64,000 nt of DNA from a virus. The position numbers were made by a program, and so were the translations under genes. Positions 2,594 through 40,292 of this stretch are shown here, one piece after another. Every line of letters begins with the position of its first letter. Within the stretch, counting starts at the first letter, position 1. Below the pieces are notes generated by a model. It did not search any database. It saw only the letters and a program-made list of their open reading frames with translations, and was not told the DNA's origin. The stretch lies in the IMG/VR virus record IMGVR_UViG_3300030685_000003, positions 1 to 64,000 of that record. One strand, given 5' to 3'.

Positions 2594-3313
2594 CTATCAT
2601 GTAAATATTTGACTTCTTATACTATTGACTACATATTTTTCTATATCATTGTATGTAGCACATTTATCTACATTATCCCATAGACCTTCTATTTTCTCTC
2701 ATTTAAATTTATGATATTTTAATAAACTTTCTGTAAAACTTATTTTAGCTTCTTTATCTGGATTATTAAGCTCATGTACTATATCAAATCTTCTCATAAC
2801 CGCAGGATCTAATTTGGTCCCCATATTAGTAGCACCAATAAGTATTACATCACTTGACAAATTATCCAATCATATAATAAACTGATTGGTTACTCTATCA
2901 TTCTCAGTTGTTGCCGATTGATCATTAGATCAATTTCTCTTAAGGCAGAACGTATCGAGCTCATCGAAGAAAATGACGCATCTACCAGAGATTCACTTAA
3001 AGATTGCCTCTATGTTGTTTGAACTTAATCACATCTTTGCTGTAATGATAGATCAAGTACGAACAATATAGGTGGGTATTCATAGTTTAAATCATATGTG
3101 TTTAGCTATTGTAGTCTTCCCATTTCATGGAGCTCATATAAATAGCAGTTTATTGCGTATTCATATATTATGTTTTTTTAACTTAGCTTGGTGTGCAATA
3201 TCTAGATTGAGTTGGTCAATAAGCTCATTAGACTTTTCATCCAAAAATATATGGTTATCTTTTCATGAACTTTCATAAAGTAACTCTTGTAATTGCTGAG
3301 ATAAGAAGAACAT
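2594..3313 (-). CDS. AAA+ ATPase
   Basis: 239 residues. Walker A GAPGNGKTT (about residue 60), Walker B VIFFDELD (about 113-120), sensor-1 GATN, and arginine finger MRRFD follow in the canonical AAA+ order. Two of the three Walker A glycines are written TGA, so the motif exists only under the Gly code. The fold resembles FtsH/spastin-type or small phage AAA proteins. It probably remodels a protein or nucleoprotein partner; the partner is unknown. The DUF2828 and Ter genes lie further upstream in the same leftward block. Confidence 0.85.
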
Positions 3314-3340
3314 AGTGATATATACAATATAAAGAATTTG

Positions 3341-3408
3341 GCAGGTAGACAGGACTTGCACCTATATGGCCTCGCAATGGGCATGTTACTAATTACACCA
3401 CTACCTGC
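3341..3408 (-). tRNA. tRNA-like gene, anticodon tentatively TGC
   Basis: 68 nt. Perfect 8 bp terminal stem (GCAGGTAG/CTACCTGC), a 4 bp D-arm, and a T-arm with 7 nt loop TGCAAGT. The best anticodon arm gives loop ATTGCGA, i.e. anticodon TGC, but with one stem mismatch and almost no variable loop. A better tRNA-Ala(TGC) lies at 6776-6848, so identity here is doubtful. May be decayed or an unusual compact tRNA. Confidence 0.5.
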
Positions 3409-4002: not shown

Positions 4003-4878
4003 TTAAAATGTTTTTCATGATTGATTGACGTCAAATACGAACAACCCGTTATCTCTCCACATTTGTACTACTTGCGGGCGATCATCGAAGACAAACACTA
4101 CGTTGTACTTATCTTTGATATGTTTATCGTAGATCTCTTGCTTGACGATGCTATCTTTTCTCGTATCATCAGTCGCTCTCATATAGAGTTGATCGAATAC
4201 TATATCATTATCTTCAAGCCATCTCATTGTTTCTTCTCTACAATAATCCATACGCCCAGTAGTTATGATGATCTCTATCTTACATCCGTTTCTGAACGCA
4301 GCACTATAGAATGCGGCTAGAACTCATGATGTCTCATCTATACAGATATCTACTCAGCATTTAGCGAAATCATAGATGTCTCTATCTCACTTCTCGGATA
4401 ATGTTCAGTCGATATCGCATATAATACAGAGTGGGAGATCTGGACTATGTGGTCTTCTAATAAACGGTTTGTATAGATATTTATTGTACATCTCCATAAT
4501 TACCTTCTTACCTACGGGATTCTCTCTCTTGGAGTCTCTTTCGATACATTCATCTACCGGAGTGTCGAAGAATTTTACTTCGAACTCAGCACTATGAGTC
4601 TTTGCTATATCTCTTAGTACTAATTCATGCTCAGGAGAAAAGTTTGTATCGTCAACTATTGCTGTATATCAATCATAAAGAGTCATATGTACCATATGAT
4701 TTCTAGCCTCTATAACAAATTTCTCATTTGCTTTCGATCGACGTCAAACATCAACCATAGCTCTTAAGTCATCCTTGTTTATACGTTTATACTTACCAGG
4801 ACTTTTCAATACCAATTCCTTGGCATAAGTGCTCTTACCACTCGCTGGCAATCCTTTGAGCATGAGTATTTTCTTCAT
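4003..4878 (-). CDS. pnkP: polynucleotide 5'-kinase / 3'-phosphatase (T4 Pnkp type)
   Basis: 291 residues, close to T4 Pnk (301). The N-terminal kinase domain has P-loop GLPASGKST (residues 9-17), a DD pair and the TNFSPEH region. The C-terminal HAD phosphatase domain has DIDGT (about residue 170), a TTGR motif and FVFDDRP near the end. It phosphorylates 5'-OH ends and removes 3' or 2',3'-cyclic phosphates so cut RNA can be sealed. The RNA ligase gene lies directly upstream with a 1 bp gap, so the two form a healing-and-sealing pair, as T4 Pnk and Rnl1 do for cleaved tRNA. The catalytic DxDGT glycine is TGA. Confidence 0.93.
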
Positions 4879-4879
4879 C

Positions 4880-6130
4880 TTATGATTGGGTTGATTCTAA
4901 ATCCTCAACTCCTAGGTCAAGGTCTGCCGATTCTTTACCTAAAAAGATAGGACTCTTAGCTTTAGTTACAAATGGTTGGATTCAATCTCTACGAACAACA
5001 ACTCATTCATCACATGGTGACTTATCACATAATGGTACAGCGTGTTTGTGTGTAGGAAAATAAGTTATATCAATCCAATCCTCAGCAACAAAGTCTTTAT
5101 GATATCATTCCCACATCAATGGAACAATATTAAATCAATTCATAGTACAGAATGCCTCCATATTATCATATGTAAGATCACAAGAGATCCCATCCTCATT
5201 GACAATAGCTATTCTATACACATACATAGCCATTTGGCCCTGTGGTAAGTTATAGGTATAGTCTTTTTGGATTTGTTTGTCTCCATCCCATCAGATTATT
5301 TCTCCATAGATGATCCAGTTCTTTGGGATTCTATCTTTATATTCAGCTAGTACCTTGTTCCATAGATCAGAGGCATAGTACCCAGAGTGTTCCTTGTCTA
5401 CCTTAGCATCTTTAACTACCCTTCTAGATCCAGCTATGTAGTCATATTCGTATTCATCTATAGCGATCCCGAATTTTTTGAGAATATTCTCTATGAAGTT
5501 TGTAGCTCTTCTAACTTTGATATGCCCAAATCTACCAGATGTCCCATGTAATTTTTGGGTAGCGGTGACCATATCACCATCTTTATAGAAATGTTTATTT
5601 CTCCAGTAGTTCTCAGTGTCGAGATGTTCTGGGAAAGTTTTGGCATCAACTCTAGTGAATACCTTGTTTTTACCACCAACTCTATTCTCTCTAGATCATT
5701 TTACCGCAATTTCATATTTCTTACAGATCTCAACCCCATCAATGGCGTTAAAAGTGTCTCATAATTGCAGTTCTCATTGGACTAGGGATGATAAAGAGCT
5801 CACTGGCATAAGTAATGCTGAGGAAATATGCCCTCTCAATTTTACGGTCTTGATTCTTCTTTTCTCTTCGATATATCCTGGCTTCGCTTCTATGTCAGAA
5901 TTGAGCTCTGGTTTTCTGTAGAGGTTGTTATTCTTACAGTAGTCCTCAGATAGTTGACATTCAGCAGTGAATAGGATATATAGTGCTTGTAGATCTATAT
6001 CTTTAGACACTATAGCTTGGTATCCGAAGAACGGAACGGCTCTAAGATTATCGCATCATACGAGATCAAGTAGTGCTCAGATTTTTACTACGGTTGCACA
6101 GTAATTATTATCGTGGATTTCTAATTTCAT
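4880..6130 (-). CDS. ATP-dependent RNA ligase (DRB0094/Rnl5-like)
   Basis: 416 residues. Nucleotidyltransferase motif I is KLHGT (about residue 206), motif IV is DEGVVVR (about 373) and motif V includes TKAKS. An N-terminal domain of about 180 residues with RGHISSALLMPVS precedes the ligase core, as in the Deinococcus-type RNA ligase with an N-terminal OB fold. It seals 3'-OH/5'-phosphate nicks or breaks in RNA. It is cotranscribed with Pnkp and sits next to the tRNA cluster, so tRNA repair or processing of the unusual tRNA-like RNAs here is a plausible job (inference). Confidence 0.88.
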
Positions 6131-6330: not shown

Positions 6331-6336
6331 ACAATC

Positions 6337-6418
6337 GGAAGATCAAGGATTTGAACCTTGGAGACCTTTCAGTCTTACCGATTAGCAATCGGCTGCATTA
6401 CCGCTCTGCCAATCTTCC
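6337..6418 (-). tRNA. tRNA-Ser(GCT)
   Basis: 82 nt with acceptor GGAAGAT/ATCTTCC, anticodon loop TTGCTAA (anticodon GCT) on a CCGA/TCGG-type stem, a long class II variable arm, and T-arm with loop TTCAAAT. All serine hallmarks are visible. Confidence 0.9.
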
Positions 6419-6547
6419 TTATAGGTAATCTTTAGTAAATTTTTTGAGCCATTGTCTGAATGCTTTCTTAAACGAGATGTGCTTGATCTCTTTCTTAGAT
6501 AACCATCAGACTCACATACTTTTGATCTTTCTCGTAATCTTCATCAT
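6419..6547 (-). CDS. small basic protein, 42 aa
   Basis: MMKITRKIKSMGVGWLSKK continues to a Lys/Arg-rich amphipathic C-terminus (FRQWLKKFTKDYL). It stops exactly at the tRNA-Ser 5' end. Two glycines are TGA. Could be a nucleic-acid-binding or membrane-active peptide; coding is supported by composition and fit between two tRNAs. Confidence 0.45.
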
Positions 6548-6610
6548 ACAATGGTTAAGAATAAACATTGAAAACAGTCCCTCTGTGGCAGATGAAACCA
6601 GACAAATGAC

Positions 6611-6691
6611 TGGGTTAGATAGGATTCGAACCTACAAGCCGGTAAAGGACTCCGTCTACAGCGGAGCGGACCACCATTGCCCAACTAACCC
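6611..6691 (-). tRNA. tRNA-Tyr(GTA)
   Basis: 81 nt. Acceptor GGGTTAG/CTAACCC, 5 bp anticodon stem CTCCG/CGGAG with loop CTGTAGA (anticodon GTA), long variable arm as usual in bacterial tRNA-Tyr, T-loop TTCGAAT. Confidence 0.92.
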
Positions 6692-6695
6692 ATGG

Positions 6696-6766
6696 AGCGA
6701 TATATGGGACTTCAACCCATGATGCCTGGTTGGAAGCCAGACGTGTTAGCGCTACACTAATACCGC
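6696..6766 (-). tRNA. tRNA-Gly(TCC)
   Basis: Acceptor GCGGTAT/ATATCGC with one G-U pair, anticodon loop CTTCCAA on a TCTGG/CCAGG stem, T-loop TTGAAGT, discriminator U as in bacterial tRNA-Gly. Serves ordinary GGA/GGG codons. Confidence 0.92.
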
Positions 6767-6775
6767 ATATTATCT

Positions 6776-6848
6776 TGGAGAATGAGGGAATCGAACCCTC
6801 TCCTTCTCGGTGCAAGCGAGATGTGCTAGCCATTGCCACTAACCCCCC
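6776..6848 (-). tRNA. tRNA-Ala(TGC)
   Basis: Anticodon loop CTTGCAC on a TCTCG/CGAGA stem. The acceptor GGGGGGT/ATTCTCC includes a G3-U70 wobble, the alanine identity element. T-arm GAGGG-TTCGATT-CCCTC and D-arm are canonical. Confidence 0.92.
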
Positions 6849-6852
6849 ATAT

Positions 6853-6926
6853 CGCATCCCCTAGGATTCGAACCTAGAACCCACGACTTAACAGGCCGTT
6901 GCTCTAACCATTAAAGCTAGGGATGC
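6853..6926 (-). tRNA. tRNA-Asn(GTT)
   Basis: Acceptor GCATCCC/GGGATGC, anticodon stem ACGGC/GTCGT with loop CTGTTAA, T-arm CTAGG-TTCGAAT-CCTAG, discriminator G. Fully canonical. Confidence 0.93.
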
Positions 6927-6928
6927 AT

Positions 6929-6993
6929 AGTCACAGGCGAGGATCGAACTCGCGTACGCGGATTTGAAGTCCACACCACTGACCAACTGTGAT
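6929..6993 (-). tRNA. UGA-decoding tRNA (anticodon UCA), probably tRNA-Gly
   Basis: Anticodon stem GTGGA/TCCGC (5 bp) with loop CTTCAAA gives anticodon TCA, which reads UGA. T-arm GCGAG-TTCGATC-CTCGC is perfect, and discriminator U fits bacterial glycine tRNA. Between acceptor and anticodon stem only about 12 nt remain, with no evident D-stem, and position 1-72 is an A-C mismatch, leaving 6 acceptor pairs. Given GroEL evidence that UGA is Gly, this most likely inserts glycine. A tRNA-Sec is excluded by the short arms. Confidence 0.8.
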
Positions 6994-7006
6994 ACTGCGA
7001 CATACT

Positions 7007-7077
7007 CATACTATCTAGGAATCGGACCTAGTCCTAGGACTTTGGAGATCCCTGTGCTACCAGTACACCAATAGTAT
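7007..7077 (-). tRNA. tRNA-Trp(CCA)
   Basis: Acceptor ATACTAT/ATAGTAT, anticodon stem GGGAT/GTCCT with loop CTCCAAA (anticodon CCA), T-loop TCCGATT, discriminator G. Its CCA anticodon shows Trp is read only from UGG, which supports UGA being Gly. Confidence 0.92.
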
Positions 7078-7082
7078 ATAAT

Positions 7083-7153
7083 CTCAGAGCCGAAGAATCG
7101 AACTTCTGTCCCCTGCTTCAAAGGCAGGTGTCATGCCACTAGACCATCTCTGA
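7083..7153 (-). tRNA. tRNA-Gln(TTG)
   Basis: Anticodon stem CCTGC/GCAGG with loop CTTTGAA (anticodon TTG), discriminator G, acceptor TCAGAG/CTCTGA plus a mismatch at 7-66, T-loop TTCGATT with an imperfect stem. First tRNA downstream of the DUF2828 gene. Confidence 0.85.
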
Positions 7154-7254
7154 ATATTGAGGTTTCGTGTACCTAACAGAAACCCCTAAAGAATAGCATA
7201 CAGCTTAGCCCACCGTATGAGAGACGTCGATAATCAACTAGACAGGGATAGCAT
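7154..7254 (-). other. intergenic spacer with hairpin
   Basis: Between the DUF2828 stop and tRNA-Gln is a strong hairpin, GGGGTTTC ... GAAACCTC, with a 12 nt loop (about 7158-7187). No T-run follows, so RNA processing or stability rather than simple termination is likely. Confidence 0.35.
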
Positions 7255-8646
7255 CTAATCTATTTGTTCGTATCTTTCAGAGTTGAGCGTCTTCAACATT
7301 ACTCCAATAGGAGTCATATCTTCACCACCCAATAATCCCTTCATGATAGCTGGAGATGCTCCAGAGACTAGTGCAACACCATTTGCATTATATGCTACAG
7401 GTGAGTTACCTTGCCTTCCATTTACATTCCAGTAAACAAGATTCGGCATTTGGTAACCAAATTGTTCGTATTGCAATCTGATAGCCTCATGATTTGTTAG
7501 TCATCCTACATTAGAGTCGTTGAACTCCATGTCAGAGATAACCAATATATTGTCTGGCATATCAGCAGCTGTTAGATTAGAAGCTAGCGCTGTATTCAAT
7601 ACTAATTGAAACGCTGCTTGTAGATTTGTGTCAAATCACACAGGCCCAGCAATCTCTCTAAATCTTTGGCAAGGAGATCCTTGCAAGTATTGCATTCTAG
7701 GTTCTGATGTGAACGTGATGAATGCATCCTTAAATATAGACTTGTTTCTTTCCGCTAGATATACTCACAATGATATGGAAATGTCCATCGGAGTCAAGTT
7801 ATTGTTACCATATGAGCTATTCATTGATCCAGATACATCTACCATAGGTAAGAAGGATTTTCCTTCAGGCACATAGTTAGGTAGGTTAGCCCACTGAGCA
7901 TTGATAATAGTTGGATTTTCTCATTTATTATATGATTGATACAACTGATAAGGAAACAATGTCCCAGCCTTGATTGCTAGCGGATCCTTTTCGATGAATT
8001 GATTGAATCTTTCCTCGTCGTGTCTAACAAATGCTTTCTTATATTTATGGAATGCTTGAGATGGAATCTTTTCGTATTCAATAAACGCCCATTGATTAGC
8101 AGACATTTGTTGCTCAACTACCTTAGTGTTTGCTACTAGGAATTTTCTGAATGCTTTTGGAGATAATTTGAGATGCTTTCTAAAGTACTCAAATATTTCG
8201 CCTTTTCTAGGCATCCATTTACATAACAATCCTATCTTACTTTCTTTTGTATGGTCAGTATCTGGTGAATGCATCCATTCAAGGATATATTCTAATGATG
8301 TATCAAAAAGATCATCCCATCTACCATATTCTGGCACAAATTTGTTGTATTTTTGAAGCTGTGCTTTTGATAAAGAATTCCAGATAGTTCTAAAGAATCT
8401 TCTTTCTCCAGCTCATCATCTGACATCTCTAGCCCAGAATAAACATCTGAACGCTAGCTTCTCATCTTCAACAAGTGCAGAGGTCCACATAGAAAGGATA
8501 TCCTTTTCAGACATATTTCTAGAAGCTCCCGCTATGAAGAAAAGATCTACAACAGAGTGTAGAGAAGTTGAATTTGTTACTGCTCCATTGGCAGTTAATG
8601 AATCATGCTGTCTAGCAGCGTTAACGAATGGTGATTGTGAGATCAT
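7255..8646 (-). CDS. DUF2828 protein: Ro60/TROVE-like region plus vWA domain
   Basis: 463 residues. The N-terminal helical part has VVDLFFIAGASR and RDVRGGAGERRFF, then CKWMPRKG and FVANTKVVEQQM-type motifs typical of DUF2828. The C-terminal vWA domain has a MIDAS-like VDVSGSM (about residue 289) with downstream Thr/Asp (GFDTN, ISDMEFN). DUF2828 is related to Ro60, a ring protein that binds misfolded RNAs and Y RNAs. Start MISQSPFVN is chosen because an upstream ATG lies inside RNA unit Y-a. Directly upstream are five Y-RNA-like units. Family call strong; RNA binding is inferred from homology and context. Confidence 0.85.
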
Positions 8647-8664
8647 GGTGTATATAGTTTTACA

Positions 8665-8737
8665 GAACACAGTTTGCTGGATTTGGACCAGCTCGCTCCG
8701 AGGAGCTTCAACCAGTTTAGTTATGCTGTATGTGTTC
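8665..8737 (-). ncRNA. Y-RNA-like unit a
   Basis: Closing stem GAACACA/TGTGTTC, then the shared motif ACAGCATAACT, a hairpin GCTC-CTCG-GAGC, and a T-arm-like hairpin GCTGG-TCCAAAT-CCAGC. Ends with TGT like the other units. It is the unit nearest the DUF2828 start codon. Confidence 0.65.
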
Positions 8738-8758
8738 TTTAAATAAAGATCAAATAAC

Positions 8759-8878
8759 GGGACGCATTTCTTAAGTGCTCTAACCAGACTGAGCTACCAA
8801 CGCCTTGCGACGCTAGGTTGGATTTGAACCAACGACCACTGCTTTAATAGAGCGTAGAAGTTATGCTGTGAGCGTCCC
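8759..8878 (-). ncRNA. Y-RNA-like unit b with tRNA-like module (permuted)
   Basis: Closing stem GGGACGC/GCGTCCC and motif CACAGCATAACT. Inside, in order: T-arm GTTGG-TTCAAAT-CCAAC, the acceptor 3' strand, a GCAA tetraloop, the acceptor 5' strand (8 bp stem CTAGCGTC/GGCGTTGG), and D-arm GCTC-AGTCTGGTTA-GAGC. tRNA parts are thus circularly permuted and the acceptor is capped, as in tRNA mimics of bacterial Y RNAs. If the closing part were removed, an anticodon stem CTGCT/AGCAG would form. Confidence 0.75.
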
Positions 8879-8893
8879 TTATATTTATTAACA

Positions 8894-9005
8894 GGACAGG
8901 ATTTTAAGGCGTCCTAACCACTAGACTACGTGTGCCTTGCGACACATAACGGGAATCGAACCCATGTCTCCTGCTTGAAGTGCAGAGTTTATGCTGTTAC
9001 TGTCC
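8894..9005 (-). ncRNA. Y-RNA-like unit c with tRNA-like module (permuted)
   Basis: Closing stem AGGACAG/CTGTCCT (outer pair just outside the interval) and motif ACAGCATAAACT. T-arm ATGGG-TTCGATT-CCCGT, GCAA-capped acceptor-like stem (TGTGTC/GGCACA) and Glu-type D-arm GTCTAGTGGTTAGGAC follow in permuted order. Removing the closing part would give stem CCTGC/GCAGG with loop ACTTCAA. Same architecture as unit b with different sequence. Confidence 0.75.
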
Positions 9006-9028
9006 TTTGATTTGTTTTACCCTAAACA

Positions 9029-9130
9029 GGTCACGATAAGATGGCTTGCGCCAAGATTATTGTGTAGCGAATCACCACTACGGGATCCTTGCGGACTGGA
9101 GATTTTTGGGTTGGGTTGCTGTGTGTGACC
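9029..9130 (-). ncRNA. Y-RNA-like unit d
   Basis: Closing stem AGGTCAC/GTGACCT, motif ACACAGCAACCC, two hairpins capped by GCAA tetraloops (GTCC/GGAT and TGGC/GCCA), and a GTAG/CTAC arm with a D-loop-like sequence. No clear T-arm, so it is a diverged or different module in the same frame. Confidence 0.6.
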
Positions 9131-9143
9131 TTTGAGATATACA

Positions 9144-9194
9144 GGAGGCATTGGTTTTAGCGTTACAGAGCTTATAAGTTTGCTGTGAGCCTCC
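9144..9194 (-). ncRNA. Y-RNA-like unit e, minimal form
   Basis: Closing stem AGGAGGC/GCCTCCT and motif TCACAGCAAACTT with only about 25 nt inside, including AGC/GCT pairing. It lacks the tRNA-like module, so it may show the minimal protein-binding part of the family. It is the first unit of the array on the leftward transcript, just after the endolysin stop. Confidence 0.6.
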
Positions 9195-9206
9195 TTTGTT
9201 GATGAT

Positions 9207-10121
9207 CTAATCTAAATAGTAGAATGTATTTACTGCTGGGTACCAAGATTCTTTTACTCATGGGGTACCAGTAACATATTTACCACTGATTTGTTTAGGT
9301 GTCATCATTCACTGACTGAAGTATACACATTTAAATAGATATCATTGTGATTTGAATGCCTCTTCAACAGAACTAAATGCATAGAGATGAGTTCAAGGAT
9401 AATAATTTGCTGGTTCTCTACTACAATCGCTATTTATTTTCCATTTCATTCATCCCCAATTATTGGCGAGATACCCACTAGCAGAAACAAAGTTTGCTCA
9501 TAGATGGCTCTCTTTATATGACGATCATAACTGTAATTTGAATAGATCATATCAAGACCAAGTCTCTTGTGATTGTTTTTTTATCTTAAGAAACAATTGA
9601 TCATTATGACATAGTGGAGATGTTCTTCAATTTATCCAAACTTCACAAACTTTATTCATAAGTCTCAAGTCTAATCAGGTTAATATGGTCGTATAAACTG
9701 GCTTAGCACCTTTGATGTTTTGTAATCTAGACATATCAAAGTTAACTCATGGGCAATTCTTCGGTTGGAAGTCTCAATGCCTCTTAATTTCCATTCAAGG
9801 ATGTTCCTCATTGATTCGAGATATGATTGTTCTAATCATATTATATTGAGCCTCTGTTGGTAATACTCATGGTAGATTGAAATTTCAAACAACCTCAATC
9901 TGTATTGAGTCAAGATTAGCTTGTGCATTTCTAGTTCCTCATACAGCTATGTCCAAATCATTTACTTTCACAAAGTCTCAAGAACATCATACTATAAAGT
10001 GTGCTGGTATGTGCTTCATTTTTCAACTAGCAACCCGAGTTCAACTCATTGACTTCTCCATCTGCTTGGCAGATAAACAGTTTGGGGTACCAGTATTATG
10101 AATAATAATATACTTATATCA
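9207..10121 (-). CDS. N-acetylmuramoyl-L-alanine amidase (endolysin), start uncertain
   Basis: Amidase_2-type core: YIIIHNTGTP at the N-terminus, HIPAHFIV, then AVGGTRNAQANLDSIQIEVVG (split glycines TGA), PTEAQYN and the zinc-type KRHGDFQPKNCPG. The C-terminal 130 residues look like a cell-wall-binding domain rich in Trp/Tyr. Cuts the peptidoglycan stem peptide during lysis. The conserved N-terminal strand lies upstream of the first in-frame ATG (10059-10061), so the true start may be a non-ATG codon near 10121; I could not identify it. Confidence 0.8.
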
Positions 10122-10456: not shown

Positions 10457-11368
10457 CTATTTTTTTACCATCGAGTATGCTATACCCCAAGATAAACAAA
10501 AGCCTATAACTATAAGACTCATGTACGTCGGTATATGGAATCCAAAGATTCCTGATATCATTTTTGCTCATATGAAGAACAAAATAATAATAACTGCATG
10601 ACTAAGGTATTTAACTTGGTTACCTACTGCCTCCAATATAAAGTATAGAGATCTTAGACCAAGTATTGCAAATATATTGGAAGAGAATAGGATGAACTTA
10701 TCTGACGTGATTGCTAATACAGCTGGTATAGAATCAAAAGCGAACATAACGTCTGCTATCTCAATAACTACCAAAGTCAAAAACAACGCAGTCATAAATA
10801 GTTTTCAGTTTTCTCTTACAAAGAATTTGTGTCAATCTAATTTTGGGTAAACAGGTAGTATTTTTTTTAGAAATGTAGCTATCTTCCCTTTAGAATAATC
10901 AACTTCGTCTTGTTCTCAACCATCTGACATTAGCTCTTTGAGCATTTTAATAGCAGACCAAATAACAATAAGACCGAAGATAACTAACACAACTGGTCAA
11001 AGTGACATTAGCCACGCCCCAGCAAAGATAAAACACATTCTTAATACGATTGCACCTAGTATTCCTCGGTATAAAATTCTATGTCTATACCTTTGAGGTA
11101 TAACGAATGATGAGAATATTGCCATCATAACGAATAGATTATCAACCGACAGTGATTTCTCTAATAAGTAACCACTAAAGAAATTCATTGAAGCGTCCAG
11201 ACCCATTGAAAAATATATATACACATTGAATCCTACAGCCAAAGCTATCCACATACAGCTTTCTATAGCTGCTTGTTTCAAAGATATTGCTTTATCTTCC
11301 TTATGCCTTAGATGATCAAATGTCAACGACGCTGCAAGAACCACAAACATAACAATGTAATGTCACAT
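10457..11368 (-). CDS. terC: TerC family integral membrane protein
   Basis: 303 residues, 7-9 hydrophobic helices. Family hallmarks: SLSVDNLFVMMAIF with the conserved acidic residue in helix, and VVIEIADVMFAFDSIPAVLA with Asp/Glu in the second half. TerC proteins are linked to metal (Mn, tellurite) homeostasis at the membrane. ATG overlaps the TAA of the upstream gene; a TerD gene follows further upstream, so this is a Ter-type cassette. Uncommon cargo for a phage. Confidence 0.9.
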
Positions 11369-11658
11369 TATCTTTTTGCCGACAATAAAAAGCTAATGTA
11401 AGACACTAAGATAACGGCACATATGATGAATGATAACATCCCGCTAAACATAAAGAATACCAATAATGGAGCCAATACTAAGAATGATCTAATAGCAGTA
11501 TTATTGTTTTGATCCCATCTTACGATAAATCCATTGATTAAGTTAACCAAGAATCTAGTGAAAGGATTTCTCTTTGTGGCACCAAGCCATAGTTGGAATT
11601 TGTTTGCGTAAATTTGTCATAAATGTTTTTCAATAAATTTGAGTATAGTATTAAACAT
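11368..11658 (-). CDS. small two-helix membrane protein, 96 aa
   Basis: MFNTILKFIEKHLGQIYA is an amphipathic start, then two hydrophobic segments (about 57-75 and 77-92: LVLAPLLVFFMFSG, FIICAVILVSYISFLL). Translationally coupled to TerC by TAATG. Probable partner of TerC or a holin-like protein; not assigned. Confidence 0.6.
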
Positions 11659-11678
11659 TCCTAAATAGGGGGTAAGAA

Positions 11679-11708
11679 TAAAAGAAAAGGGTGGTGGTTA
11701 GCCACCCT
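11679..11708 (-). terminator. Rho-independent terminator after terD
   Basis: On the leftward strand GGTGG-CTAA-CCACC is followed by CCCTTTTCTTTTATT. Lies just downstream of the TerD stop. Confidence 0.75.
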
Positions 11709-11714
11709 AACCTA

Positions 11715-12242
11715 CTAAAGACTTTCAGCTACTTGTGAAATGTCTCCGTCAATGTAGTCTCCCATTGCTGTGAAAGCATAGTTGTCACCTGAGTCAACAA
11801 CCTTACCTACTACTACAGCAGTATGAGCACCACCTTGAGCCAATACATAAGTTGCAAGAACTTCGTTTGTTTCTTGATTGTATACAGTTGCCTTAGCATT
11901 TGCAACATCAGAGAACTTAACGTTTCCTGTGTAAATATTTACACAGATGAAGTACTCACCATCACCAGATTTAGTGGCGTCCATTTTAACGAATTCATCG
12001 TCTCCATCTCCTGCACCAGTTCTATTGTCTTCTGACAATTCGACCCCAGTAATAGCAGTTCTAGCATTGTAGTATGCTACTTTCTTTGCTCCATTTGCTT
12101 TTTCAACAATGAACAAATCAAGATCTGCAGTAATTCCTTCTTTAACGTCCCAAGAGAGACCTACTCTAATTTTTGAGATAGATGAACCATCTGCTTTTTT
12201 GAGGTCTAGAGTTTGACCTTTAACCAAGTTGAGTGCTTTCAT
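11715..12242 (-). CDS. terD: TerD domain protein
   Basis: 175 residues covering one full TerD (calcium-binding stress protein) domain: MKALNLVKGQTLDLKK, then VGLSWD, ADLDLFIVE, DNRTGAGDGDDE (acidic Ca-site loop) and GDGEYFICVNIYTG. TerD proteins act in tellurite/stress responses and bind calcium. The gene is TGA-free although the protein has about 19 glycines, unlike neighbours, suggesting high expression or recent acquisition. Own terminator downstream and promoter upstream at 12580-12607. Confidence 0.9.
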   Translation of the reverse strand: MKALNLVKGQTLDLKKADGSSISKIRVGLSWDVKEGITADLDLFIVEKANGAKKVAYYNARTAITGVELSEDNRTGAGDGDDEFVKMDATKSGDGEYFICVNIYTGNVKFSDVANAKATVYNQETNEVLATYVLAQGGAHTAVVVGKVVDSGDNYAFTAMGDYIDGDISQVAESL

Positions 12243-17058: not shown

Positions 17059-18363
17059 TTATTCGTAATCTTTCATATCAAGATATGTGAAGTTATTTGT
17101 GTATGTTTGATACGCTCTCTTTCTGGCGTACCATTGATTCTCCGTCATTGAAGAATTATCTACTATGTCGTATATATTTATCTCTTGTTTCCCTTCAAAA
17201 GATCTCATTGCTCTTCCCGATGCTTGTATAACATTAGCTGGCTCTCTACCTGAGAAACAGACTATAATTGTATCTACTGCTGGATTATCGAATCCTACTC
17301 AGAGGATTTGTCTTGTTGCTACCAATACTCTTTTTTCTTCAAATTGCAACATAATTTCATTTCTTTTTTTTGTGGTAGTTGTGGCAACTATGAATGGGAT
17401 ATCAAGTTCTTTTCAAAATCTCTCGGAAGTCTCAGCTCTGTCAGTCATGATAAGTATTTTTTTGTTTGCTGATAAAGACTTCTTTACTAGTCTTTTCACC
17501 ACATCTATTTTTTCTGGGTTTGCTTCTAACATTGTCTTAAGATTATTCCAATCAGCATACTCATCGAATAGTGTCTTGAGTTTTATCTTAGTAACCCTTA
17601 TGTCAAATTGAGAGATAAGAAACTCTCTATATTCATAAGCATCTACTATTCTTCCCCAAAATTTTAGGAAGTCACCATACTTAAATCAAGACATATCAGG
17701 AGTTCAAGTCATAGCATACTTATATTGACATTGGGTCTCTATGATCATATTTCTGTATGTGTTTTTGATGAGTAGATGTGCTTCATCGAATATAGTTATA
17801 TCCCATTCCCCATTATATTTTTCTAAGAATTTTTTGTAGGAAGCATAAACAACAACCGTTATGTCATTGAATTGTTTCTTCATTCCATAGTAGATACCTA
17901 CTTGTCATGGGAATTTTTCTTCTAATGATGCTGATAGTTGTTGTGCATTCATAATTGTATTTGTCAATATAACTGTCTTTCATTTAAGCTGCCCTATTAT
18001 CCAAGCAGTTGTCACCGTCTTACCGTATCCAACATCGGCGTATAAAAGACCGTATGGTTTCTGGATAAGTTCTTTCTGTGGTCTATCCTGATATCGTCTA
18101 AGTACTGTAGTATCGTGTATTGTAATAGGCTTATTTATTACTGACTCTACCTTTATTCCGAAGTGTTCACAAGCAGAGATATTACACTTCCCATTCCTAA
18201 CATTCCATAGTGGATAGAAATCTGGTTGCATATATCAGGCCTTCTCATTGATCCTAGTTAGCTTTTCTTTCTTGTAATTTTCTGTACGCAAAAAAGATTT
18301 AGGATTAGCGAAGGTATTTAGTTGTGTTATCTCTGCAAGAGTTATTGATCAGTTATGGAGCAT
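17059..18363 (-). CDS. SF2 DEAH-type helicase
   Basis: 434 residues. Motif I ADVGYGKT (about 113), motif II IFDEAH, motif III MTGTP, motif V-like GVGFDNPAVD and motif VI QASGRAMR. The N-terminal 80 residues include a short Cys-containing part (GKCNISACEHFG). Resembles UvsW/RecG-like phage helicases that remodel replication or recombination intermediates. Context (RecT, SSB, nuclease) supports this. Confidence 0.88.
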
Positions 18364-25254: not shown

Positions 25255-25680
25255 TTAGTCTGTTATAGATAAAGACTTCGCCTCTTCTGCTAGTTCTTCT
25301 AATCTTTCAATCATTTCGTCATATCAATTTTCGTAAGTCACAAATTGATCTTCTAGAGTTATTGCATATTTTCTTCACTTCTCTGTGCCATATCTAGGGG
25401 TTCGTCTGTCTGTCCTGATTTCTATATCCGTTCTATCTTCACTACAAGCGACTACTTCTGCGTATATTCATTTACCTTTGTAGAGATTTGTTATTAAAAA
25501 TCCTATCTCTAAATCATTGGCGTTTTCTAGTCGCTCATCTTTTTGTTCGGTTGTGAGCTTTGCAAGTGTCCCGTCTTCGTCTATAGCTTCTTGGCGTCAA
25601 TAACCTTGACAAGAACATTTATATTCATTCTCCTCTAATACTTTTTTACTATCTGTGCTTTCGTGGTAGTATTTTGCCAT
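25255..25680 (-). CDS. hypothetical protein, 141 aa
   Basis: MAKYYHESTDSKKVLEENE, with CSCQGYG near residue 25 and beta-rich NANDLEIGFLITN. Acidic C-terminal helix. Unrecognised. Confidence 0.6.
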
Positions 25681-26093: not shown

Positions 26094-26483
26094 CTACTTG
26101 TACTCTTTTGCGTATCAATCGGCAATCATTGCTTCGTTGACGCTTTCGTTTTCTAATAAGATCTCTCCCAATAGTCTGCCATAGTAGTCCTTATGGTTTT
26201 CAAGTTTTATATTTATCCTACCCGGACGGCTTAGGATTTGTCTTAGGTGGTCCTTTGCTTCTTGTCCACCGCTTTCGGCGTATCAATATCTTAATGTGTT
26301 GCTCTCGGGCGCGTCAATCCCTGTTAGTCTTAGGGATTGCTTTTTTCCTTGGTATTCTACTTTGACTGTGTCCCCGTCGATAACGTACAAGAGTTTGGGG
26401 GCGTCTGTATGTAGAATAACAAAAGACGCTCCCCCAAAAAATAACAAAAGCACAATAACTAATAGACTTTTTTCAGCGTTCAT
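26094..26483 (-). CDS. thermonuclease (SNase fold), membrane-anchored or secreted
   Basis: 129 residues. N-terminal hydrophobic segment (SLLVIVLLLFFGGASFVIL), then the SNase core: YVIDGDTVKVEY, LRLTGIDAPE, EAKDHLRQIL, KDYYGRLLGEILLE. Catalytic Arg/Glu/Arg positions are present (RLTGIDAPE, GRLLGE). Extracytoplasmic nuclease, possibly degrading host or competing nucleic acid. Confidence 0.88.
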
Positions 26484-26490
26484 ACGTCGG

Positions 26491-26832
26491 CTATTTTACA
26501 AAATAAACTGTATAGTTTCCGTTTGTTTCAAAACATTTTACACCGTTTTTGTCTGCCGTTTTGATTTCGTCGTATAGAAATCTTAGCCCATTATCTGTCA
26601 AGAATTGGTTGAAATATATTCTTGTTGTGTTGCTGTAATCCCAGTCCTTGTAAATATAAATGATTTGTTTTACTTGGTCGATGTCGCAAATTTGCGAGCG
26701 GTAAGACTGAAACGTGATGACGTGTTTTTTTAGGTTTCACTTTTTGTCTGTTTCTTTTTGTTCGATTTCAATTTGATTGGCTACTGGCGCACCTGTTCTA
26801 GTGCTTCAAAGGTTTGTTGCTGTTATAGACAT
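26491..26832 (-). CDS. hypothetical protein, 113 aa
   Basis: MSITATNLGSTRTGAPVAN; Lys-rich middle and Tyr-rich C-terminus (NGNYTVYFVK). Unrecognised; same direction as neighbours. Confidence 0.55.
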
Positions 26833-38654: not shown

Positions 38655-40292
38655 ATGGGTAAAGAAATCACGTTTTGAGAAAATTGAAGGAAAAAAATCC
38701 TTAATGGAATAAAAAAAGTATATGATGTGGTAAGAATTACTATGTGACCTAAGGGGAAAAACGTATTATTGCAGAGAAATAACGTACCATTGATCACAAA
38801 TGATGGTATAAGTGTGGCAAAACTTATAGAATTGAATGATAATGCTGAGAAAATGGGTCTAAGATTCATCCAAGAAGCCGCTTGAAAGACCAATTTAGAT
38901 GCCTGAGATGGTACTACATTGACTACTGTACTGTCTTATGCCATGGCAAATGAAGGTATGAAGTATGTAAATAACGGAATCAATCCATTTACGCTATCGG
39001 AGCAGCTTTTAAACACCCAAAAATTTGTATTAGAGGGACTAAAATGAATGACTTTGCCAGTTACTTCGAAGAAGTTGATCCAAGAAGTTGCTACAATCTC
39101 TGCTCAGAGCGAGGAAATCGGTAAAGTTATCGCCGATACTATAGATAAAGTAGGTGAAAACGGGGTTATTACCGTAGAAGAAGGTAAAAATCTGGGTATA
39201 ACTACTGAAATTACTATAGGATATAAGTTCAATCAGGGGTATACATCACCATATTTCGTTACAGATCCTAATAAAATGGAGTGTATTATAGAGAATGCAT
39301 ACATCTTAATTACCGATAAGACCATATCTAACCCGAAAGATATAGAAAAAGCACTCAATGATATTACCATGACAGGTTCTAAAGATATAGTCATTATTGC
39401 TGAGGATGTTATAGGTGATGCATTGACTATGATTGTAAGGGCAAAGAACCATAGAGGCACACCAATAAATATCGTAGTTGTTAAGGCTCCAAGTTACGGA
39501 GACGTTAAGAAAGAAATGCTATGTGACATTGCTGCCATCACTGGTGGTAAAGTCTTCTCAGATGATTTTTGAATAAGTTTCGACCAATCATCTTTGGACT
39601 ATATGTGACGTTGTGATAAATTTATTTGTACCAAACAATCAAGTATCATAGTTTGAGGTAAATGATCAAAAAAAGATATAGATTCTAGAATAGCTTCTGT
39701 AAAAGCGTTGCTCAAAAACAAGGATGATGATTTTGATAGATTCGATCTTGATAGAAGAGTTGCTGCTCTTGCCGGATGAGTTGCTGTTATCAGAGTTGGA
39801 GCTGGTACTGAAATGGAAATGCAGAATAAAAGACTTAAGGTCGAGGATGCGTTGAATGCCACTAAGGCAGCTATCCAAGAAGGTATTGTTGCATGAGGAT
39901 GAACGACTCTTGTAAATCTAAGCGAGTATATACTTAGTCAGTGATTCACATACGTTTCTGAAGAAGAAAAAATTGCCGACAAAATTATCGCAGATGCATT
40001 ACTCTATCCGATCAAACAAATCTGTTTGAATGCTGGATATAGTGGTGATGTGGCAGTAGATAAAATAATAAAGCATAAATCCAATAGCTATGGATTCAAC
40101 GCAAAGACTGGTGAGTACTGAGATATGCTTAGGATGTGAATCATAGACCCGGCTAAAGTTTTGAGATGTGCTATCGAAAATGCTGTGTCTGCCGCTATGA
40201 TGCTCCTTACACTTGATGCTATCGTTGTTGATGAAAAAATTAAGGACCAATACTCAGTCCAAACAGGATTTGATTTATCTGACGCTATGTAA
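38655..40292 (+). CDS. groL: GroEL chaperonin
   Basis: 545 residues, full length. MGKEITFGENW start, [26 protein letters not shown] (ATP binding; several glycines TGA), [11 protein letters not shown] apical domain, [40 protein letters not shown] and C-terminal DAIVVDE. About 16 glycines are TGA, at positions that are glycine in all GroELs: the best proof of the code. Probably folds the capsid; phage GroEL genes are uncommon. Confidence 0.96.

Follow-up and report, generated by a model that had tools for sequence, protein, structure and literature searches.

Which RNAs does a Ro60-like protein of a virus work with, and by what mark would it recognise them? The question is raised by the IMG/VR virus record IMGVR_UViG_3300030685_000003 (70,155 bases), the first 64,000 nucleotides (nt) of which were analysed here and are referred to as the window. 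Five tandem units lie there on the minus strand, directly upstream of a gene for a Ro60-like protein of the DUF2828 family, and a preliminary description had read them as resembling Y RNAs. Our results support this reading: the units are very probably trans-acting small RNAs, the Y RNAs of the downstream protein, with a recognition signature of their own. As regards the functional sense of the term Y RNA, gene linkage to a Ro60-type protein was found, and other genomes have such arrays as well.

On the minus strand the units follow one another from 9195 down to 8665, each enclosed by a closing stem:

9143-9195, minus strand: unit e, 53 nt; closing stem AGGAGGC/GCCTCCT, then TC and ACAGCAAAC; a bare scaffold without a module
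9028-9131, minus strand: unit d, 104 nt; closing stem AGGTCAC/GTGACCT, then AC and ACAGCAACC
8893-9006, minus strand: unit c, 114 nt; closing stem AGGACAG/CTGTCCT, then TA and ACAGCATAAAC
8759-8878, minus strand: unit b, 120 nt; closing stem GGGACGC/GCGTCCC, then TC and ACAGCATAAC
8665-8737, minus strand: unit a, 73 nt; closing stem GAACACA/TGTGTTC, then T and ACAGCATAAC

The five stems are present exactly as first described: each consists of 7 perfect base pairs (bp; 8 in unit a when the flanking A-T pair is counted), and all differ in sequence while the pairing is kept. The hexamer ACAGCA follows the 5' strand of the stem at a distance of 2 nt (1 nt in unit a), and GT directly follows the closing 3' strand in all five units. 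The longer motif ACAGCA(T)AAC, previously given for the whole array, had to be narrowed, since ACAGCA occurs in every unit but the fuller ACAGCATAAC only in a and b, and neither in c (ACAGCATAAAC) nor in d and e (ACAGCAA). Where the window has 5 such units, 2000 dinucleotide shuffles of positions 8640-9230 yielded 0.006 on average and at most 1. The rest of the 64-kb window holds a single further ACAGCA or TCAGCA site with a 7-bp stem and a 3' G (2894-3052), which is probably a chance occurrence. A chance origin of the array itself was rejected on the grounds of these shuffles and of the hexamer screens, strand asymmetry and gene linkage described below.

Within this common frame the units differ. 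Unit a contains a single T-arm-like hairpin (GCTGG-TCCAAAT-CCAGC; fold z -3.1), and unit d three inner hairpins, two of them with GCAA loops, without a clear T-arm (fold z -3.6). Units b (fold z -2.8) and c share a permuted tRNA-like module composed of an anticodon-arm-like hairpin, T-arm, GCAA-capped acceptor and D-arm. The modules that had been reported for b and c are thus real, as is the lack of one in unit e.

The gene downstream begins 18 nt after the end of unit a:

7255-8646, minus strand: gene of the Ro60-like protein (DUF2828 and DUF7788, phrog_850), with six in-frame TGA codons read as glycine

In this virus TGA stands for glycine (translation table 25), and with that reading the earlier assignment to DUF2828 is borne out. 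The protein has 463 residues from the start at 8646 (a 471-residue reading, P0001, starts at an upstream GTG) and matches DUF7788 (2e-40) and DUF2828 (2e-22) in Pfam and phrog_850, 'RNA-binding protein', in PHROGs (6e-130). These were the only two Pfam domains at E <= 0.001, the TROVE profile PF05731 giving no match; a sequence search against solved structures found no Ro60, and PADLOC gave no match for the protein. The kinship with Ro60 that had been proposed emerges from the predicted fold. An AlphaFold2 model built from 47 sequences (window and IMG/VR loci; predicted local distance difference test score 86) aligns with 1yvp_A at Z 22.0 over 401 residues (root-mean-square deviation 3.8), and its top Foldseek ranks are all Ro60/TROVE, Thermus phage phiLo Ro60 (2025) and Deinococcus Rsr among them. 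The model points to a full Ro60 fold, a HEAT-repeat ring plus a vWA domain. The metal-ion-dependent adhesion site (MIDAS) motif of the latter (DxSxS...T...D) is kept, with D278, S280, S282, T348 and D380 invariant. Fold and MIDAS residues are therefore shared with Ro60/TROVE proteins (1yvp, 2nvo; phiLo Ro60, 9l5y), whereas identity to these is 11-18% and Pfam places the window protein in DUF2828/DUF7788 rather than TROVE. Relatives of it are encoded in 665 of 50,697 phage records.

The preliminary description had made its case depend on the occurrence of homologous units near other DUF2828 genes. In a blind screen of 99 viral loci around such genes, we determined for every hexamer how frequently the 7-mer placed 2 bases ahead of it can pair perfectly with a stretch of the following 200 bases. 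ACAGCA exceeded all other hexamers in both the number and the rate of such cases (79 of 297 sense occurrences, against 2.3% overall, p 6e-59; 5 of 146 antisense), TCAGCA ranked second by rate, and a gap of 2 was the preferred spacing from the stem. A G follows the unit in 74 of the 79 ACAGCA cases. The 110 distinct viral units comprise 68 stem sequences, stem positions 4-7 show all four Watson-Crick pairs, and the consensus reads A-[AGRNNNN]-NT-ACAGCAA ... [NNNNYCT]-GT. An independent set was provided by 80 bacterial and archaeal loci, which were fetched later and entered the training of no model. Here ACAGCA was again the top hexamer (210 of 459 sense occurrences against 2.1%; 4 of 173 antisense), and a G follows 201 of these 210 units; at least one ACAGCA or TCAGCA unit with a following G is present in 67 of the 80 loci. 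Most of these loci belong to gut Firmicutes (Ruminococcus, Oscillospiraceae, Erysipelotrichaceae), some lying on long contigs or a complete genome, and in most of them between two and six units immediately precede the DUF2828 gene. A canonical TROVE gene is absent from twelve of these DUF2828 genomes, and within one order DUF2828 occurs in 16 of 295 genomes. Similarly built units also adjoin DUF2828 genes in phages whose hosts include Listeria, Salmonella (FelixO1), Staphylococcus, Mycobacterium, Klebsiella and Bacillus. The outcome thus favours the preliminary reading. Across relatives the arrays hold 2 to about 10 units; counts are lower bounds, because selection for perfect stems hides imperfect units. 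The diagnostic part is the closing stem together with WCAGCAA and the 3' G(U), and not the tRNA-like module, which is missing from most units.

Linkage to DUF2828 was examined, as had been proposed, with a covariance model, R1, built from 40 short units. These were trimmed because MAFFT leaves the 3' ends of full units unaligned, and the 100% pairing in the R1 alignment is not counted as evidence, since it came from selection; likewise unit e scores 32.9 bits but is itself a member of the training set. In whole viral records drawn only for a tRNA motif, to which T4, SPO1 and phiKZ were added, R1 matched 7 of 7 DUF2828 viruses and 1 of 39 without DUF2828 (E <= 0.01; Fisher 1.5e-7); one of the seven had given a training unit, and the DUF2828 match of another is below the Pfam cut-off. 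In the bacterial loci all 90 R1 matches are on the strand of the DUF2828 gene. Among loci found by Pfam alone, units occur in 14 of 15 with DUF2828 (46 units) and in 1 of 11 with canonical TROVE. The unit signature is specific to DUF2828 viruses and absent from canonical TROVE loci.

The modules invite comparison with YrlA and other bacterial Y RNAs that accompany Rsr (TROVE, PF05731). These likewise possess a Ro-side closing stem, a tRNA-like module and a neighbouring gene for a Ro60 homologue, and T-arm, capped acceptor and D-arm follow one another as in YrlA both in units b and c and in relatives such as that of Cronobacter phage GAP32. On the YrlA model (RF02553), unit b scores 30.9 bits (E 1e-4), unit c 13.8 and the best relative, from GAP32, 44.7, all below the gathering threshold of 69. 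Only b and c show the permuted module, and the Ro-side stem sequence of YrlA was found in none: its consensus end, acggCgaAUGCuugg, has a different 5' end and no ACAGCAA. In contrast to YrlA, the partner here is a DUF2828 protein, the units form arrays, and most of them are without a tRNA module; a T-arm is found in 0 of 63 viral units shorter than 75 nt as against 14 of 25 of 95-145 nt. In some bacterial units the enclosed tRNA body is not permuted but has the normal order; of 201 units, 5 contain a tRNA according to ARAGORN. Such bodies (Met-cat, Ser and Arg) are nested within closing stem and ACAGCAA at 2406-2606 of locus L301 (e.g. 2514-2606), at 1086-1191 and 1410-1501 of L282 and at 138-243 of L328. 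A third, non-tRNA module, CTTTCTGGAGGGGAAAGYAAAAACTCGCC, which looks like an H-type pseudoknot and has no Rfam match, recurs near the 3' end of units in five viral loci (L046 149-280, L056 ~1483, L063 2258-2352, L082 ~2737, L099 1601-1703). Inserts as varied as these, or none at all, are thus exchanged on a scaffold that stays constant.

The bare scaffold resembles, in addition, an RNA of social amoebae, a likeness of sequence and predicted pairing that the preliminary description did not contain. Among 4227 Rfam families, unit e gave a full-length match to Dicty_Class_I_RNA (RF01414) at 23.3 bits and E 0.07. When RF01414 was run alone over 18 whole phage and virus records (75-735 kb; E <= 1), it picked all four FelixO1 units, two units in Listeria, two in Staphylococcus and three in Klebsiella phages, one in Fusobacterium, and unit e of the window; the best match (37.1 bits, E 6e-6, in a 735-kb phage) does not reach the gathering threshold of 41.5. 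Because control bacteria also match at E <= 0.1, only matches at E <= 1e-3 were counted in contigs: they occur in 14 of 40 IMG/VR contigs with DUF2828 and in 0 of 36 tRNA-bearing contigs without it (pooled Fisher 3e-5). Inspected singly, the strong matches are perfect 7-bp units ending in CUG. A second match in the virus of the window, at 17424-17482 (E 0.002), inside the helicase open reading frame and without a proper unit, was taken as chance, and the weak match G021 (E 0.007), without the motif, was also set aside.

Class I RNAs are 42-65 nt long and encoded by many gene copies, with a short stem showing compensatory changes, the 11-nt motif CCUUACAGCAA beside its 5' strand, a variable middle, an AAG start and a CUGU end; they have their own promoter element, DUSE, and a known binder, Rnp1A, which is an RNA recognition motif protein, and were stated to be unique to Dictyostelia after a search that covered eukaryotes and Myxococcus, not phages (PMC7919456). 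Unit e, which begins with AAG and ends with CUGU, and its relatives show the closing stem, ACAGCAA, both ends and this length. Common to both groups are thus an end-joining stem of free sequence with kept pairing, a motif by its 5' strand and a variable middle, while the hosts of Class I RNAs are social amoebae and the phage units score below the RF01414 threshold. We know of no DUF2828 or Ro60 partner of a Class I RNA. In our judgement the chances are evenly balanced that a single family comprises the Class I RNAs together with the arrays of viruses and bacteria, namely Y RNAs read by a DUF2828-type Ro60 through the closing stem and ACAGCAA; the likeness could reflect shared ancestry or convergence on one protein surface.

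The statement that no array of this kind had been described with a DUF2828 protein stands, as judged on Rfam 15 and open-licence PMC papers, insofar as a scan of the loci brought no Rfam family except tRNA to threshold. It needs qualification in that Y RNAs had already been suggested for phage Ro60-like proteins (PMC12282133, PMC7765460). In Listeria phage CKA15, whose protein CKA15_055 belongs to the family of the window protein, the abundant transcripts CKA15_059-061 were proposed as Y RNAs near CKA15_055 (PMC12282133). Three units are present in the CKA15 genome (OR088597.1) at 25290-25552, between CKA15_055 and CKA15_056 and directly upstream of the former. CKA15_059-061 (non-coding RNA, 26388-26698, the most abundant CKA15 transcripts) contain no ACAGCA and were rejected as units.

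How such RNAs might act can be sketched by analogy. Human and other vertebrate Y RNAs likewise have a stem that joins their 5' and 3' ends, and attach to the outer face of the Ro60 ring; their stem has a different conserved sequence, and they are without a tRNA-like module of the window's kind. On the outer surface of the Ro60 ring the Y RNA controls the access of misfolded RNA, and a bacterial Y RNA tethers Rsr to a nuclease. In the present system, the closing stem of free sequence, the unpaired WCAGCAA and the 3' G-U would be the mark recognised by the ring of the DUF2828-type Ro60, behind which stands an interchangeable module. This place is empty in unit e and taken by a T-arm-like hairpin in a, by hairpins of other kinds in d and by a permuted tRNA mimic in b and c. 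Separately transcribed, the RNA may lie on the outer surface of the ring and gate the entry of damaged RNA to its hole; stem and ACAGCAA would serve as the docking part, and the insert as a tether or bait for partner enzymes that recognise tRNA-like shapes.

The genes that follow the Ro60-like gene on the minus strand include two possible functional partners:

6336-7154, minus strand: array of eight tRNA genes, directly downstream of the Ro60-like gene
4880-6130, minus strand: RNA ligase (PF09414), Pfam match; possible functional partner
4003-4878, minus strand: polynucleotide kinase-phosphatase (AAA_33 and HAD_PNKP), Pfam match; possible functional partner

The tRNA called as selenocysteine (SeC; anticodon TCA, 6929-7001) is probably a tRNA-Gly that decodes TGA. 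With the ligase and the kinase-phosphatase nearby, the RNAs and their protein might take part in quality control or repair of tRNA or other RNA during infection, a suggestion that we make tentatively and with some leaning towards doubt. It fits, because both enzymes are encoded by the virus, an annotated RNA ligase lies beside the DUF2828 gene of GAP32, and an RNA-repair role was proposed for phage TROVE proteins (PMC7824862). Other genes of the window include TerC- and TerD-like genes upstream of the array (10457-12242) and, downstream of it, an AAA ATPase like IetA of the IetAS defence system (2594-3361; PADLOC 3e-45), all on the strand of the array, as well as a phage-encoded GroEL (38655-40292; phrog_5725, 4e-140).

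The position of the array, directly upstream of the DUF2828 gene and on its strand in the window and in most bacterial loci, with unit a ending so near the start codon, would also suit an operator-like leader that acts in cis in the DUF2828 mRNA and lets the protein control its own synthesis. Yet the array lies downstream of the gene in FelixO1 and in Mycobacterium, Staphylococcus and Klebsiella phages, and units are found several kb from it in KVP40 and ~200 kb away in GAP32. Trans-acting RNAs are therefore favoured over a mere leader, for which it would also be odd to consist of as many as about ten tandem units and to include tRNA mimics, and we consider the leader very unlikely. Least probable of all is an origin from tRNA genes, permuted, split or decayed in the case of b and c, with the array as the relic of a tRNA cluster: eight real tRNAs adjoin, b and c do hold T- and D-arms, and odd tRNA annotations of 113-121 nt stand near DUF2828 genes in phage records, but the closing stem and ACAGCA are common to unit e and dozens of short tRNA-free units, the stem varies with its pairing kept, and the arms have the order of YrlA. 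Among the odd annotations are 113-114 nt entries labelled 'tRNA-OTHER', pseudo-tRNA or long tRNA (L005 6994-7107, L016 6044-6156, L020 6000-6113), some of which may be Y-like RNAs or intron-bearing tRNAs. Somewhat better, though still unlikely, is the idea that the RNAs are decoys, tRNA-like baits for host anticodon nucleases or tRNA-binding defence proteins that the Ro60-like protein merely stabilises; tRNA-like bodies in permuted and normal order and the nearby repair enzymes agree with it, but a tRNA part is missing from most units, and bacterial genomes carry such arrays too.

Several observations weigh against the interpretation as Y RNAs preferred here, or against single steps of it. No clear promoter or terminator was found at the array, and about half of the sampled viral loci have no perfect-stem ACAGCA unit within 3 kb. 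In CKA15 the most transcribed non-coding RNAs differ from the units. As to the repair partners, tblastn across 98 DUF2828 loci placed a relative of the kinase near one and of the ligase near none, and a neighbourhood of repair enzymes is weak as a general rule for DUF2828 genes.

A branch of Ro60 proteins that is encoded by gut bacteria as well as in hundreds of phage records thus appears to have RNA partners and a recognition mark of its own, and the DUF2828 genes of well-studied phages, listed as 'hypothetical protein', therefore become parts of a particle open to experiment. The range of inserts, from none to a permuted tRNA, a tRNA in normal order or a pseudoknot-like module, suggests that one RNA mimic can take the place of another on a common scaffold. 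The likeness to Class I RNAs provides a concrete hypothesis on the protein partner of an abundant developmental RNA of social amoebae; if it is true, Class I RNAs would be Y RNAs with prokaryotic or viral relatives and no longer unique to Dictyostelia.
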